From assembly GCF_900108275.1 (NCBI RefSeq), contig NZ_FNVD01000005.1:124001-188000 (forward strand): a stretch of DNA of 64,000 bases, read 5' to 3'. Positions 17,227 through 23,890 of this stretch are shown piece after piece. Numbering within the stretch: the stretch's first letter is position 1; every line of letters starts with the position of its first letter. The position numbers and the translations under genes were made by a program. This DNA is from Jhaorihella thermophila (GTDB lineage Bacteria > Pseudomonadota > Alphaproteobacteria > Rhodobacterales > Rhodobacteraceae). The notes below the pieces were generated by a model. It saw only the letters and a program-made list of their open reading frames with translations. It was not told where the DNA came from and did no database searches.

Positions 17227-18438
17227 CTACAGAAAGCTGCGGCCGGGCCCCTGCGCGGGCACGCCCAGATGCGCCGCGACGCTGGCGGCGACGTCGGCCA
17301 TGGCGATCAGCCCCGCGCTGCCCGCGCCTGCGCCGTCGATCAGCACCGGCACCCGTTCGCGGGTGTGATCGGTGCCGGCCCATGTCGGGTCGTTGCCGTG
17401 ATCGGCGGTGATCACCAGCAGATCGCCGGGGCGCAGCGTGGCGCGGACCTCTCCGATGCGGGCATCGAACCATTCCAACGCGCGGGCATAGCCGCTCACG
17501 TCGCGGCGGTGGCCGTAGAGACTGTCGAATTCGACGAAATTGGCGAAGGTCAGGCTGCCGTCCTCGGCCTCGGCGACGCGGTGCTTGAGATGCTCCATCA
17601 GCTCGGCATCGGGGCCTTTCACGTTGCGGCCGATCCCCTGCATCGAGAAGATGTCGCCGATCTTGCCGATCCCGTAAACCTTGCGACCCGCGTCCTGCAC
17701 CCAGTTGGTCAGCACCGGAGACGGCGGGGTGATCGCGAAATCCTTGCGGTGCGGCGTGCGGGTGAATCCATGTTCGGGATCGCCGACAAAGGGCCGGGCG
17801 ATCACGCGCCCCACGCGCATCGCGTGCAGCATCGGCGCGATGTCGGCGCAAAGCTTCAGCAGCCGCTCCAGCCCGAAGGTTTCCTCGTGCGCGGCGATCT
17901 GGAACACGCTGTCGGCCGAAGTGTAGCAGATTGGCCAGCCGGTGCGCATATGCTCCGCACCCAGACGTTCGATGATCGCGGTGCCGGGGGCGTGGCAATT
18001 GCCGAGGATTCCGTCGGTGACCGCGGCCTTCATCACCGCCTGCGTGACCTCTTCGGGAAAGGCGGGGACGGTATCGGGGAAATAGGTCCAGTCCCACGGC
18101 ACCGGCAGGCCGGCCAACTCCCAGTGGCCCGAGGGCGTGTCCTTGCCTCTCGACTGTTCGGTGGCTGCGGCCCAGAACCCGGTCGGGTCCGCCTCCAGCC
18201 CCGGCGCATCGATCCCGCTGGCCAGCCGCACCGCTGCGCCCAGCCCCAGCGCATCGAGATTGGGCAGCCGCAAGGGACCGCTGCGGCCCTCTTCGGCGCG
18301 GCCTTCGGCACAGGCCTGCGCGATGTGGCCGACCGTATTCGCGCCGGTATCCGGCACGCCACTGTTGAAATACCGGTCCGCATCCGGCGCCCCGCCGATG
18401 CCGACCGAATCCATCACCACCAGAAAGGCGCGCGTCAT
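17227..18438 (-). CDS. deoB: phosphopentomutase
   Basis: A 403-residue alkaline-phosphatase-superfamily mutase converting (deoxy)ribose 1-phosphate to the 5-phosphate. Metal-binding motifs are VVMDSVGIGGAPDA at the N-terminus and ITADHGNDPTWAGTDHTRE near residues 335-355. The active-site Thr lies in the DTPSGHWE block. Its start overlaps the deoA stop by four bases. Together with deoA and cdd it routes nucleoside sugars into the pentose phosphate pathway. Confidence 0.96.
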   Translation of the reverse strand: MTRAFLVVMDSVGIGGAPDADRYFNSGVPDTGANTVGHIAQACAEGRAEEGRSGPLRLPNLDALGLGAAVRLASGIDAPGLEADPTGFWAAATEQSRGKDTPSGHWELAGLPVPWDWTYFPDTVPAFPEEVTQAVMKAAVTDGILGNCHAPGTAIIERLGAEHMRTGWPICYTSADSVFQIAAHEETFGLERLLKLCADIAPMLHAMRVGRVIARPFVGDPEHGFTRTPHRKDFAITPPSPVLTNWVQDAGRKVYGIGKIGDIFSMQGIGRNVKGPDAELMEHLKHRVAEAEDGSLTFANFVEFDSLYGHRRDVSGYARALEWFDARIGEVRATLRPGDLLVITADHGNDPTWAGTDHTRERVPVLIDGAGAGSAGLIAMADVAASVAAHLGVPAQGPGRSFL

Positions 18439-19742
18439 GGTCCCACCCGTTCGTGAATCAATGCCGGAACCGGCGCGGGATCCGGCGAAATCGTGATCGC
18501 CGCCCGCACCGCCGCCACGGCTGCCGCCGCGGCGTCCTCGCGCGCGGCGTGAACCATCGCCAGCGGCTGGCCGGCCTCAACCCTTTGGCCCAGTCGCGCC
18601 ACCTGCGCCAGCCCCACGGCCGGGTCGATCCGGTCGGTTTCCACCTGCCGCCCGCCGCCCAGCGCGACCACGGCGAGGCCCAGCGCCTCCCCATCCATCG
18701 CGGTGACGTAGCCGGATGTCGGGGCGGGCGCCTCGCGGATCACCGTCGCCTCGGGCAGAAACCGCGCCCAGTCATCAACAAAGCCCAAGGGGCCGCCTTG
18801 CCCCGCGATCATGCGTCCGAACCGCTCTGCCGCGCGACCATCGGCCAACGTGTCGGCCACCGCCCTTGCGCCCGCATCCGCATCCTCAGCCAGCCCCGCC
18901 AGCGCCAGCACATCGCCGCCCAGCGCGGCGGTGAGTTCCGCCAGCGGTCCGCCGGCCCGCCCCGTCAGCACCCGCATCACCTCGGCCACTTCCAGCGCGT
19001 TACCGAGGCTCGGCGCGAGCGGCTGGTTCATGTCAGTCATCAGCGCCGCAGTCCGGCACCCGGCGGCATTGGCCGTGGCCACCAGCGCCTGCGCCAGCGC
19101 GCGGGCGTCGTCCGCCGTCTTCATGAAGGCGCCGCTGCCCACCTTCACGTCCAGCACAAGCGCCTCCAGCCCCGCCGCAAGCTTCTTGGACAGGATCGAG
19201 GCGGTGATGAGATCGAGGCTCTCCACCGTCGCGGTCACGTCGCGGATCGCGTAGAGCCGCTTGTCCGCCGGGGCGATATGGGCCGAGGCGCCGACGATCA
19301 TGCAGCCCGCGCGAACCAGCAGGTCGGGCAGGCGGTCCTCGGGGAATACCGTCGCCACGCCGGGGATCGATTCGAGCTTGTCCAGCGTCCCGCCCGTATG
19401 CCCCAGCCCCCGGCCCGAGATCATCGGCACATAGGCCCCGCATTCGGCCAGCGCCGGCGCCAGCAGCAACGACACGCAATCGCCCAGACCCCCGGTGGAA
19501 TGCTTGTCCACCACCGGCGCGTCCAGATCCCAGCGCAGCACCTCGCCGCTGTCGCGCATGGCCAGCGTCAGCGCCGTCCGCCCGGTCTCGCCCAGCCCGC
19601 CCATGCAGACGGCCATGGCAAAGGCCCCGGCCTGTGCGTCGCTGACATGGCCATCGGCCAGCCCTTGGGCGAACCAGCGCAATTCGTCCTCGGTCGGCAC
19701 TTCGCGCCGGCGAAGTTTGGCAATGATGGAACGCGCGTCCAT
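18435..19742 (-). CDS. deoA: thymidine phosphorylase
   Basis: A 435-residue pyrimidine nucleoside phosphorylase, splitting thymidine with phosphate into thymine and deoxyribose 1-phosphate. The family signature SGRGLGHTGGTLDKLESIPG is near residue 110, and DKHSTGGLGD (phosphate binding) is near 80. The length fits family norms. It lies six bases after cdd and overlaps deoB. Confidence 0.96.
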   Translation of the reverse strand: MDARSIIAKLRRREVPTEDELRWFAQGLADGHVSDAQAGAFAMAVCMGGLGETGRTALTLAMRDSGEVLRWDLDAPVVDKHSTGGLGDCVSLLLAPALAECGAYVPMISGRGLGHTGGTLDKLESIPGVATVFPEDRLPDLLVRAGCMIVGASAHIAPADKRLYAIRDVTATVESLDLITASILSKKLAAGLEALVLDVKVGSGAFMKTADDARALAQALVATANAAGCRTAALMTDMNQPLAPSLGNALEVAEVMRVLTGRAGGPLAELTAALGGDVLALAGLAEDADAGARAVADTLADGRAAERFGRMIAGQGGPLGFVDDWARFLPEATVIREAPAPTSGYVTAMDGEALGLAVVALGGGRQVETDRIDPAVGLAQVARLGQRVEAGQPLAMVHAAREDAAAAAVAAVRAAITISPDPAPVPALIHERVGP

Positions 19743-19748
19743 GTTCCC

Positions 19749-20141
19749 CTACACCTCGAAGTGATCGTGGCCGAAAGCGCCGGGCAGGAGCTCTTCCATC
19801 GTCATCACCCGTTCTTCGCCGCGCGTGGTGGCCATGACGACCGGCACCGCGCCGCAGGCGAATTCCGCGATCCGCTGGCGGCAGCCGCCGCAGGGCGATA
19901 CCGGCACCGGGCTGTCGGCGATCACATAGACCTCGGCGATCTCGGTCTCGCCGGCCGCGACCATGGCCGCGATCGCTCCGGCCTCGGCGCAGGTGCCTTC
20001 GGGGTAGGAGACGTTTTCGACATTGCAGCCGGCAAAGATCTTGCCGCTGGCCGTGCGCACCGCAGCGCCGACCTTGAAGCCCGAATAGGGCGCATGCGCA
20101 TTGTGCCTGACGGCTTCGGCCGCTTGCTTGAGCGTGGTCAC
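19749..20141 (-). CDS. cdd: cytidine deaminase
   Basis: A 130-residue zinc enzyme deaminating cytidine and deoxycytidine. The zinc site is formed by CAEAGAI (catalytic Glu) and PCGGCRQ, and the substrate-binding FKVGAAV and GCNVEN segments are present. The length is that of homotetrameric bacterial cytidine deaminases. It overlaps the upstream VOC-cupin gene by four bases, so the four minus-strand genes are probably one operon. Confidence 0.96.
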   Translation of the reverse strand: MTTLKQAAEAVRHNAHAPYSGFKVGAAVRTASGKIFAGCNVENVSYPEGTCAEAGAIAAMVAAGETEIAEVYVIADSPVPVSPCGGCRQRIAEFACGAVPVVMATTRGEERVMTMEELLPGAFGHDHFEV

Positions 20142-21226
20142 GATTGCACCTCCGTCCTGAATGTCCCGGGCAGGGTCACTTCGAGCAGTTCCAGATCGTC
20201 CGACGGGTCCGCCAGCCGCGTGGCCATCCCCGGCGGGATCACGAAGGCATCGCCCGCCTCCAGCGCGAACGGGGTGCGCCCCTCGCCTTGCAGCATGACC
20301 CGGCCCGCCATCACATAGTTGAACAGGATGTCCGCGTCATGAACGGCCCATCCCGGCGCATCCTCGCCGCGACGCAGCACCTGCACACCCGCCACGCCGC
20401 GTGTCGCCTCGGCGATCCCGGTGTCGCGGCAGATGTAGCCGGGCAGGCGCGACGGACCACATTTGCCCTCCTTCGCAAGGCTGTGCACGAATCTCTGCCC
20501 CTGCCATTCGCGGTCTGGGCGGTAATGCGGGGTGGGCAGCGTCATCTCGTGGTCGATCTCGGTGACATGCTCGGCCGGCACGCCGATCTCGATCACCTGC
20601 AGATCGTCGCTGGCTTCCACCACCCTGTGGCGGATCTCGGGCGGCTGGATGAAGCAGTCGCCGGCCGTGAGCCGCCGCAGACCGCCCTGATCCTCATACA
20701 GCACATCGACCCAGCCGTTGATGCAAAAGATCAGCTGGAACCCGACCTTGTGATAATGCACCATGTCCGGCACCGGCCCGCCGTGGGGGATGCGGATGTG
20801 GCTGGCGATCATCGCCCCACCCAGCCGGTCGGGCACGAGGTCGCGATAGTTCATCCCCGCCCGGCCGATTACCCAGGGCGCCCCGTCGGCCAGCCGGCGC
20901 ACGACAAAGGAATGCCGCGTCTCGGGCAGCACCAGCGGCGGGTCGCGCGCGTCGATCTCGACCCGCGTGCCGTTGGGGGCCACCAGTTCCCGCGCGCCGC
21001 CGGCAAACCCGTCCGGGTCGTCGGTCAGGATGCGGATCGTGCCCGGCGGCTCGGGCGCGCCCTTTTCGATGCGCAGCCGCAGCCCGTGGCCGGAAAACAC
21101 CGCGATTCGCGGGTCGTCGGCGGGGTAGATCATGTCCATCCGCATTCCCAGAACGTTCGTGAAGAACGGGATGTCGTCGCGAAGTTCTTTCGTGGGCAGG
21201 CGGATCTCGGCGATGGTATCGGACAT
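20138..21226 (-). CDS. VOC domain plus double-cupin protein of the nucleoside salvage operon
   Basis: A protein of about 362 residues with three small barrel domains. Residues 1-100 resemble a glyoxalase/VOC domain (IRLPTKELRDDIPFFTNVLG). A first cupin follows at about 150-240, with metal-type ligands in MVHYHKVGFQ and PPEIRHRV, and a second at about 290-355 (GWAVHDADILFNYVMAG, AGDAFVIPPG) that has lost most histidines. Start chosen at ATG 21226 (MSDTIAEIRLP). An in-frame ATG at 21250 adds eight residues. I do not know its activity. Its stop overlaps cdd, so it is the first gene of cdd-deoA-deoB and may act on a base or sugar from nucleoside breakdown. Confidence 0.75.
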   Translation of the reverse strand: MSDTIAEIRLPTKELRDDIPFFTNVLGMRMDMIYPADDPRIAVFSGHGLRLRIEKGAPEPPGTIRILTDDPDGFAGGARELVAPNGTRVEIDARDPPLVLPETRHSFVVRRLADGAPWVIGRAGMNYRDLVPDRLGGAMIASHIRIPHGGPVPDMVHYHKVGFQLIFCINGWVDVLYEDQGGLRRLTAGDCFIQPPEIRHRVVEASDDLQVIEIGVPAEHVTEIDHEMTLPTPHYRPDREWQGQRFVHSLAKEGKCGPSRLPGYICRDTGIAEATRGVAGVQVLRRGEDAPGWAVHDADILFNYVMAGRVMLQGEGRTPFALEAGDAFVIPPGMATRLADPSDDLELLEVTLPGTFRTEVQS

Positions 21227-21340
21227 GTGTTCCACGATCGAAAATGTCATGCCCGCCGAGAGTGACGAGTGCCCCTCGGATTTGCAACCCGCCGAGTCGG
21301 CGCCCCGGCGCGGATTCTGAGGTTTCCCCGGCGTCAGATA

Positions 21341-21358: not shown

Positions 21359-21380
21359 CATTCTCTCGGAGATCTCGCCC

Positions 21381-23654
21381 ATGCCACAGAAAGAGACGCT
21401 GCGCGAGGCCGCGCTGTTCTATCACGAGTTTCCCAAGCCGGGAAAACTGGAGATTCGCGCTACCAAGCCGATGGCCAATGGCCGCGACCTGAGCCGCGCC
21501 TATTCTCCCGGCGTGGCCGAAGCCTGCACCGAGATTCGCGACAACCCGGCCGATGCGGTGCGCTATACCGCCAAGGGCAATCTTGTCGCGGTGGTGTCCA
21601 ACGGCAGCGCGGTGCTGGGGCTGGGCAATATCGGCGCGCTCGCGTCCAAGCCGGTGATGGAGGGCAAGGCGGTCCTGTTCAAGAAATTCGCCAATATCGA
21701 CTGTTTCGACATCGAGGTGAACGAATCCGACCCCGAAAAGCTGGCCGAGATCGTCTGCGCGCTGGAGCCCACCTTTGGCGCGATCAACCTCGAGGACATC
21801 AAGGCGCCCGACTGCTTCATCGTGGAAAGGATCTGCCGAGAGCGGATGAACATCCCCGTCTTTCACGACGACCAGCACGGCACCGCCATCGTGGTGGGGG
21901 CTGCGGCCAAGAACGCGCTGCGTGTGGCCGGCAAGCGGCCCGAGGAGATCAAGCTCGTCTCCACCGGCGGCGGCGCGGCGGGGGTCGCCTGTCTCAACAT
22001 GCTGCTCAAGCTGGGGGTGAAGCGGGAAAACATCTGGCTGTGCGACATTCACGGGCTGGTCTACGAGGGTCGCGAGGTGGACATGAACCCGCAAAAGGCG
22101 GCCTTCGCGCAACGGACCGATCTGCGGACGCTGGATCAGGTCATCGAGGGCGCGGACATGTTCCTTGGCCTGTCCGGTCCGAACGTGCTGACGGCCGGGA
22201 TGGTGGCGAAGATGACCGACCGTCCGATCATCTTTGCGCTGGCCAACCCGACGCCGGAAATCATGCCGGAAGAGGCTCGCAAGGTCGCGCCTGACGCGAT
22301 CATCGCCACCGGGCGCAGCGACTATCCCAACCAGGTCAACAACGTCCTGTGTTTTCCCTTCATCTTCCGTGGTGCGCTGGACGTGGGCGCGACCGAGATC
22401 AACGACGCGATGCAGCTGGCCTGCATCGATGGCATCGCCGAACTGGCCCGCGCCACCACCAGCGCCGAGGCGGCGGCCGCCTATCGCGGCGATCAGCTGA
22501 CCTTTGGCGCCGACTACCTGATCCCCAAACCCTTTGATCCGCGCCTGATGGCGGTCGTGTCGTCCTCGGTCGCCAAGGCGGCGATGGACAGCGGCGTCGC
22601 CACCCGCCCGGTCGCGGACATGGAGGAATACAAGGCCCGGCTGAACCAGGGCGTTTTCAAGTCGGCCCTCTTGATGCGGCCGGTGTTCGAAGCAGCCCGC
22701 GCTGCCTCGCGCCGGATCATCTTTGCCGAGGGCGAGGACGAGCGCGTCCTGCGCGCCGCCCAGGCTATTCTCGAGGAAACCACCGAGACGCCGATCCTGA
22801 TCGGTCGGCCCGAGGTGATCGAGCGGCGCTGCGAACGCTATGGCCTGCGGATCCGACCGGGGCGGGATTTCGAACTGGTCAACCCGGAAAACGACCCGCG
22901 CTATTACGATTACTGGACCAGCTATCACGAGATCATGCAGCGGCGCGGGGTGACGCCCGACATCGCCAAGGCGGTGATGCGCACCAACACCACCGCCATT
23001 GGCGCGGTCGCCGTGCATCGGGGCGAAGCCGACAGTCTGATCTGCGGCACCTTCGGCGAATACCGCTGGCATCTGCGCTATGTGACGCAGGTGCTGGGCA
23101 CGGCCGAACTGCGCCCGCACGGCGCGCTGACGCTGATGATCCTCGAGGACGGTCCCCTGTTCATCGCTGACACCCATGTGCACGAGGAACCCACGCCCGA
23201 ACAGATCGCCGAGATCACCATCGGCGCGGCGCGGCACGTCCGCCGTTTCGGTATCGAACCGGCGATCGCGCTGTGCACCCAGTCGCAGTTCGGCAACCAC
23301 GAAGGCGGCACAGGCAAGCGGATGCGGGACGCGATCGCCATTCTCGACAGCGCGCCGCGCGACTTCTGCTATGAAGGCGAGATGCAGATCGACACCGCGC
23401 TGGACCCGCAGCTGCGCGAACGGATCTTCCCCAATTCGCGGATGAAGGGGCCGGCCAACGTGCTGATTTTTGCCCATGCCGACGCCGCTTCGGGTGTGCG
23501 CAACATTCTCAAGACGCGCGCCGGAGGGCTGGCCGTGGGGCCGATCCTGATGGGCATGGGCAACCGCGCCCATATCGTCACGCCGTCGATCACGGCGCGG
23601 GGCCTCTTGAACATGGCGGCCATCGCCGGCACGCCGGTGGCACAATACGGATGA
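21381..23654 (+). CDS. maeB: NADP-dependent malic enzyme with phosphotransacetylase-like domain
   Basis: A 757-residue bifunctional-type malic enzyme, decarboxylating malate to pyruvate with NADP. The N-terminal malic domain carries [15 protein letters not shown], the metal-binding region [12 protein letters not shown] and a nucleotide-binding [12 protein letters not shown]. The C-terminal half, from about residue 430, is phosphate acetyl/butyryl transferase-like ([19 protein letters not shown]) and usually acts as a regulatory, acetyl-CoA-sensing module. Start: ATG 21381 ([11 protein letters not shown]) with GGAG nine bases upstream. An earlier ATG at 21348 lies inside the inverted repeat and lacks a ribosome site. 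Confidence 0.95.
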
Positions 23655-23681: not shown

Positions 23682-23794
23682 TTTGCAATTCGTTCGGCGA
23701 ATAATTTGCAAACCCATCGACGTTGCGAGAAATGGTCGGGTAATCTCAGCCAATTTGCAAAACTTTGCAGAGGGAATGCGCCGAAGAGTGCAAA
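23682..23794. promoter_or_regulatory. cluster of TTTGCAAA boxes upstream of prpE (ScfR/PccR/RamB-type site)
   Basis: Five related boxes lie between maeB and prpE: TTTGCAAT at 23682, TTTGCAAA at 23705, TTTGCAAA at 23754, TTTGCAGA at 23764 and a partial TGCAAA at 23789. Paired TTTGCAAA boxes are the sites reported for the short-chain fatty acyl-CoA regulator PccR of Rhodobacter sphaeroides and for the related RamB of corynebacteria. The downstream gene makes propionyl-CoA, so acyl-CoA-responsive control is a strong inference. The tightest pair (23754/23764) is centred 10 bases apart. Confidence 0.65.
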
Positions 23795-23890
23795 TTTCCA
23801 GCGACAATCTGACGTTACGTTCCCTTGCGGGCTTGCCCCGATGGCGCCGCATCTCCTAACACCGTCTCAAGGTATCCGGAGGAGCACGCA

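Follow-up and report, generated by a model that had tools for sequence, protein, structure and literature searches.

A conserved cluster of TTTGCAAA boxes upstream of prpE as a probable operator of the acyl-CoA regulator PccR in Jhaorihella thermophila and other Rhodobacteraceae

Why does the propionyl-CoA synthetase gene prpE of Jhaorihella thermophila carry a cluster of TTTGCAAA boxes in front of its promoter, and which regulator would bind there? We addressed this question starting from a stretch of 64,000 nucleotides (hereafter the window), for which a sequence-only reading had noted two exact and three near copies of the box within 113 bases. This count was close to ours, namely two exact boxes, two boxes with one mismatch and one half-box (Table 1), and the 10-base spacing given there for the best pair, boxes B and B2, is correct. 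The most conserved feature of the array had been overlooked, namely that the two exact boxes are spaced 49 bp apart. All five boxes are located in the 236-bp intergenic region between the maeB stop codon and the prpE ATG, about 97-209 bases 5' of the latter.

Table 1 Features of the prpE promoter region (window coordinates) and location of the predicted regulator gene.
Feature	Position	Strand	Remarks
Box 0, TTTGCAAT, one mismatch	23682..23689		Pairs with box A as TTTGCA-N19-TGCAAA
Box A, exact TTTGCAAA	23705..23712		Sequence match
Box B, exact TTTGCAAA	23754..23761		Starts 49 bp past box A
Box B2, TTTGCAGA, one mismatch	23764..23771		10 bp past box B
Box B3, AGTGCAAA, two mismatches	23787..23794		33 bp past box B; half-box TGCAAA at 23789-23794
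Conserved GCG adjoining B3	23801..23803		Strongly conserved columns of the promoter alignment; may be another degenerate half-box
Predicted -35, TTGCCC	23833..23838	+	Conserved CTTGC in the promoter alignment
Predicted -10, TAACAC	23857..23862	+	Conserved TA.CAC; same element in the same-genus genome G001
prpE, AMP-forming propionyl-CoA synthetase, 630 aa	23891..25783	+	Pfam AMP-binding, ACAS_N
maeB, NADP-dependent malic enzyme with phosphotransacetylase-like domain	21378..23654	+	Gene upstream of prpE
Canonical ScfR gene (predicted pccR)	G000:C18:44708-46108		Only canonical ScfR in the genome

Boxes with one mismatch showed no excess over the whole 64-kb window (9 found, 10.84 expected). Exact boxes occurred on average 0.38 times in whole-window shuffles, and two or more of them anywhere in 64 kb were reached in 4 of 100 shuffles. 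What is unusual in the window is thus the clustering of the boxes and not the overall one-mismatch count: none of 150 simulated windows contained four boxes, including two exact ones, in a stretch of 100 bp, and one of 20,000 simulations placed four boxes inside the 236-bp intergenic region. The arrangement TTTGCA-N17..21-TGCAAA is present twice in the window, both times in the prpE array (shuffle mean 0.00, 100 shuffles). Across the 3.77-Mb genome there are 21 exact boxes compared with 9 matches of the reversed control, and the sole occurrence of TTTGCAAA-N1..20-TTTGCA is the prpE array. These results confirm that the array is real and far beyond chance.

With respect to the core promoter, we infer that transcription starts at about position 23869, which places the box centres at about -78, -101, -111, -160 and -183, all of them 5' of the predicted -35 element. 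The best NCBIfam match of the encoded protein is propionate--CoA ligase PRK10524 (735.7 bits, under the cut-off of 955), followed by TIGR02316 (699.8 bits, under 827.4), and acetate--CoA ligase TIGR02188 is also matched below its cut-off (637.4 bits, 724.95). Since the scores stay under the curated PrpE cut-offs, the substrate is not certain.

To what extent the array is kept in the family was determined with the prpE loci of 80 named Rhodobacteraceae genomes, the best 80 among the matches listed. The two main boxes are kept in 62 of these 80 loci and, with the window included, two boxes about 48 bp apart are present in 63 of 81 promoters, always among the matches listed; two array-calling rules each gave this number, with slightly different membership (L118 vs L081), and among the 18 loci called array-negative, L108, L118 and L125 carry boxes in other layouts. 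In the 63 array promoters, again among the matches listed, the spacing between boxes A and B is 48 bp (n = 29), 49 bp (n = 31), 50 bp (n = 2) or 47 bp (n = 1), and TTTGCA is found at box A in 62, at A-22/-23, the position of box 0, in 28, at A-8 in 30 and at B+9/+10 in 43, while TGCAAA is found at B+34/+35 in 46. A wider set comprised the 100 promoters that could be anchored among 186 distinct ones. Here, TTTGC is present at B+9 or +10, the position of B2, in 71 promoters, and TGCAAA, TGCAGA or TGCGAA starts at B+33 to +35, the position of B3, in 76. A simple rule recognized a -35/-10 pair in 74 of the 100 promoters; 64 of these pairs have the TTG of the -35 element at B+78/79, and the distance from the half-box to the -35 element amounts to 44 bp in 47 of 60 promoters.

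The same-genus genome G001 keeps boxes A and B (48 bp apart), B2, a TGCAAA and the same core promoter, and is without box 0. Among the loci fetched, the array is also present in Ruegeria, Leisingera, Shimia, Roseovarius, Marivita, Paracoccus aminovorans and a Rhodobacter, and it is absent from all four Rhodovulum loci. This distribution, i.e. an occurrence across many genera together with its lack in the Rhodovulum loci, suggests that the array is an ancestral feature of the family that was repeatedly lost.

Among the matches listed, the fetched named loci, each reaching 3 kb to either side, include a maeB match in 55 of the 62 cases with the array and in 8 of the 18 without it. We do not claim maeB as a co-target: the box in the window is TTTGCAAC at 21281-21288, 97 bp 5' of the gene, and the positions vary among relatives. 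In the 38 relatives counted, 7 loci with too little upstream DNA having been left out beforehand, a one-mismatch box is located up to 200 bp 5' of maeB in 17, several being TTTGCAAG near -95 to -111, and an exact TTTGCAAA within this distance in none. Before maeB, on the minus strand (17227-21250), we recognized by eye phosphopentomutase, thymidine phosphorylase and cytidine deaminase genes, i.e. nucleoside salvage, and then a gene for a two-cupin protein.

Which protein could recognize these boxes? The sequence-only reading had proposed to look for an ScfR gene and had named the lack of such a regulator as a refutation; a canonical one is indeed present, and the proposal thus passed this check. 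A PF09856 profile search of the genome retrieved two proteins, the canonical ScfR on contig C18 and a weak match on contig C37. The former shows HTH_3 (52.9 bits), Peptidase_M78 (IrrE/M78-like, 66.4 bits) and ScfRs (PF09856, 235.6-236.5 bits) domains, all over cut-off, and scores 438 bits against the RamB equivalog NF038139, under its cut-off of 700. Its PDB match is MtPrpR (6cyy, E 9.4e-87) with the Fe-S cysteines aligned. In MtPrpR, a C-X2-C-X4-C motif and a GAF-domain cysteine are described to hold a 4Fe-4S cluster (PMC6765138, available text); the protein studied here contains the motif (CRICERAEC) and a GAF-domain cysteine in GGACPLW, aligned to GGSCPLW of MtPrpR.

In ten of ten fetched ScfR neighbourhoods, which had been selected for box pairs close to the ScfR gene, pccB is present, and the ScfR proteins encoded there are 72-82% identical to that of the window genome. 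The tree places the latter in a clade (support 99/96) with the pccB-adjacent ScfRs L332, L333 and L341, the clade being defined by such pccB-adjacent proteins. Judged by clade and pccB neighbourhood, the canonical ScfR of the genome is a PccR orthologue. PccR is reported to control pccB (PMC12632250, available text). An exact TTTGCAAA is located 46 bp before the start of pccR, and in 36 of 39 rows of the PccR clade an exact box lies up to 150 bp 5' of the ScfR gene; of the 39 rows, the box-less L151 and L174 lack a confident start codon, and L177 and L336 represent the same genome. The weak match on the other contig (G000:C37:33824-35125, L002) is an ScfR-like HTH protein adjoining a response regulator, and its 35-40 bits exceed the ScfRs cut-off of 24. 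Second PF09856 matches occur commonly in the 120 genomes described below.

The search for box pairs at pccB and mcm, which had likewise been proposed, gave a divided result. The end of contig C18 encodes the pccB N-terminus, at a distance of about 2.9 kb from pccR and separated from it by two other predicted genes, and a second contig ends in another copy of the pccB 5' end; at both 5' ends an exact TTTGCAAA is present 81-82 bp before the ATG. The boxes at pccR and pccB are, however, single exact boxes with degenerate companions and not the exact pairs that had been looked for. At mcm, which lies on the same contig and strand as the pccB body at a distance of about 6 kb, no box was found within 300 bp upstream, and we rejected this gene as a direct target of PccR. 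Altogether, six of the 21 exact boxes in the genome are located at pccR (1), pccB (2), prpE (2) and the pyruvate carboxylase gene pyc (1).

Four contig ends lie inside pccB: G000:C18 (L008, L366), G000:C40 (L014, L365), G000:C22 (L140) and G000:C63 (L147). They comprise two different 5' ends, with diverged promoters and the same terminal 95 bases, a long 3' body and a short piece in which the similarity to pccB ceases after about 45 codons, and look like a partial pccB duplication. With regard to pyc, an exact box precedes the gene in 4 of 20 loci, including that of this genome (L135:1724, G000:C63, 145 bp 5' of pyc), and an exact pair 30 bp apart is found in G042 (L207; other pyc loci noted are L349, L351 and L361), so that pyc may be an occasional PccR target. 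A further exact pair, 44 bp apart on contig C42 (G000:C42:64862-64913, L137), is located at the 5' end of a LysR-type-looking gene; at least its first box lies inside the coding sequence as judged by eye, and we set this pair aside as a possible coding coincidence.

For an unbiased view, we searched 120 Rhodobacteraceae genomes, one per genus, for pairs of exact TTTGCAAA boxes. Pairs with starts 9-38 bp apart were found 64 times (5 in the reversed-pattern control), of which 24 are located up to 1.4 kb from a canonical ScfR domain, 10 on its pccB side at a distance of 1.4-5 kb, 5 at prpE and 25 elsewhere. For nine of the ten pairs at 1.4-5 kb, pccB was seen nearby; the tenth, in G010, fell outside the neighbourhoods fetched. 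Pairs 39-69 bp apart were found 60 times (6 in the control), and 43 of these are located no more than 400 bp 5' of prpE, with 3 close to ScfR and the other 14 elsewhere. Among the pairs located elsewhere, 5 of the 25 closer and 4 of the 14 wider ones belong to genomes without a canonical ScfR; flanking genes were inspected for 13 of these 39, one of which is the G042 pair at pyc mentioned above. The spacing of exact pairs is mostly 20 and 30 bp at the ScfR gene, 32 bp (also 12, 15, 25 and 40 bp) on the pccB side and 48/49 bp at prpE. A single universal box spacing was therefore rejected, as spacing differs by target.

Of 100 genomes that encode a canonical ScfR, 47 carry the pair at prpE, compared with 0 of 14 genomes that do not encode one (Fisher p 0.0003, relatedness ignored). 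An ScfR was counted as canonical when it matched PF09856 strongly, and proteins of further ScfR clades may be among those counted. This comparison left out six of the 120 genomes, namely G057, G091, G098 and G113 (no prpE over cut-off) as well as G010 and G055 (prpE start lacking). The 14 genomes without canonical ScfR show 0.57 one-mismatch boxes per prpE promoter, 0.15 being expected, and one of them, G074, carries a single exact box there.

The regulator orthologue, the boxes at pccR and pccB and the conserved array together support the proposal of the sequence-only reading that prpE is likely to belong to the propionyl-CoA regulon. We consider it highly likely that the prpE boxes are the operator for PccR, the only canonical short-chain fatty-acyl-CoA regulator of this genome; prpE would then very probably be a direct target of PccR, and we infer direct acyl-CoA regulation of the gene. 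Sites upstream of the -35 element are the usual layout for an activator rather than for occlusion. Since all boxes are located upstream of this element (about -78 to -183), PccR most likely activates prpE.

Alternatively, PccR could bind the array as a repressor that is released when propionyl-CoA rises. ScfR proteins can act both ways, the RamB of Paracoccus being described as activator and repressor (PMC10370305, available text), and repression is plausible at pccR, whose own box is located 46 bp 5' of the start codon. At prpE, however, all boxes are 5' of the conserved -35 element, mostly at the constant 44-bp offset, which is the usual position for activation, and we regard repression there as unlikely. 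Still less probable is that another ScfR-type protein, of the RamB or MccR type or the weak C37 protein, is the real regulator. The motifs of the family are similar, as MtPrpR binds TTTGCAAA-N1-TTTGCgAA (PMC3420887, available text), and the C37 protein passes the ScfRs cut-off. Against this, the genome encodes one canonical ScfR, which scores well under the RamB cut-off; contig C37 is without any of the 21 exact boxes; the class-2 RamB operator, as far as described in PMC10370305, is a different sequence; and the box pairs in the 120 genomes cluster at the canonical ScfR gene and pccB. The use of the array by a regulator from outside the ScfR family would agree with the 53 of 100 canonical-ScfR genomes that lack the pair at prpE, from which it follows that the presence of the regulator does not force the pair. 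Yet in the unbiased scan, the ScfR gene and pccB are marked by these exact boxes as well, and none of the genomes without canonical ScfR has the prpE pair, which makes this option highly improbable. Finally, a chance origin of the boxes in an AT-rich intergenic stretch, in line with the window-wide frequency of one-mismatch boxes, can be dismissed, since the cluster is hardly ever reached in simulations and the box spacing is kept across many genera; this conservation already refutes chance. Taken together, the prpE array is real and conserved, and very probably a functional PccR operator.

How would PccR act on this operator? Upon build-up of propionyl-CoA or a related acyl-CoA, PccR would bind the acyl-CoA, as its relative MtPrpR does, and the acyl-CoA-bound protein would occupy a promoter-proximal module (B, B2 and B3) and a distal module (box 0 and A). 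PccR on both modules would switch prpE on. Since PrpE makes propionyl-CoA and propionyl-CoA carboxylase (PCC) consumes it, the circuit would be a positive loop through the metabolite with a built-in drain. The proximal module spans 33 bp from B to B3, close to the 32 bp between the boxes in 7 of the 10 exact pairs on the pccB side.

MtPrpR is reported to form a tetramer on binding CoA or an acyl-CoA (PMC6765138, available text), which would allow a bridging of the two modules as a working hypothesis. A further-reaching and tentative model is a rigid two-module enhancer, in which a propionyl-CoA-loaded PccR tetramer bridges (0, A) and (B, B2, B3) over 48-49 bp; the resulting switch would be cooperative and, because PrpE makes the inducer, self-reinforcing, with PCC as drain, and it would be ancestral in Rhodobacteraceae and repeatedly lost. 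Offsets of 10, 20-23 and 30-33 bp correspond to one, two and three helical turns; the distance of 48-49 bp fits no integral number, and we therefore do not claim a helical phasing of all boxes.

If PccR controls prpE, its regulon would gain propionate activation and possibly acrylate activation in marine bacteria degrading dimethylsulfoniopropionate (DMSP). Two routes for acrylate have been proposed in such bacteria, one of which involves PrpE (PMC5651017, available text), and the same sensor could thereby tie the use of DMSP carbon to the propionyl-CoA level. Moreover, the nearly fixed geometry of the prpE operator across many genera suits direct tests of ScfR box number and spacing. In the open literature searched, we found no report joining PccR to prpE, which the original PccR study may mention, and none on regulation of propionyl-CoA synthetase by a Roseobacter transcriptional regulator on propionate.

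The closest known system is the PccR operator at pccB of Rhodobacter/Cereibacter sphaeroides. It was reportedly described by Carter and Alber in 2015 as one pair bound by PccR (RSP_2186), TTTGCAAA-X4-TTTGCAAA. It shares with the prpE array the box, the kind of regulator as judged by the pccB neighbourhood and the context of propionyl-CoA assimilation. It differs in that a single pair with a 4-base spacer is located at pccB, whereas about five boxes in two modules precede prpE, with offsets of 10, 22-23, 32-33 and 48-49 bp. An exact TTTGCAAA-X4-TTTGCAAA is absent from the J. thermophila genome, as is any exact pair with N1-20; the closest prpE pair, B/B2, has a 2-base spacer and one mismatch, and an exact X4 pair was found at pccB of one relative, G066 (TTTGCAAAGTCATTTGCAAA).

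In Mycobacterium tuberculosis, the MtPrpR operator at prpD-prpR and icl1 has the same box and a homologous regulator with C-X2-C-X4-C; as described, it consists of one pair with a 1-base spacer and is located at genes of the methylcitrate cycle and at icl1, not at a propionyl-CoA synthetase gene (PMC3420887 and PMC6765138, available text). The likening to RamB in the sequence-only reading fits only in part. The class-2 RamB operator of Paracoccus denitrificans, which regulates the glyoxylate cycle, belongs to the same ScfR family and involves two boxes, both needed for activation by an acyl-CoA-responsive regulator; its boxes are, however, TGACAAACCTTACA/TGACAATACTGACT with an 18-bp spacer (PMC10370305, available text). 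At prpE, the boxes are TTTGCAAA, and TGACAAACCTTACA-like boxes with an 18-bp spacer were not found there; because its sequence differs, we rejected the class-2 RamB operator as the identity of the array. The remark that the layout departs from a simple pair was borne out: the published operators considered here are pairs, whereas the array described here has more boxes, two modules and, with prpE, another target.
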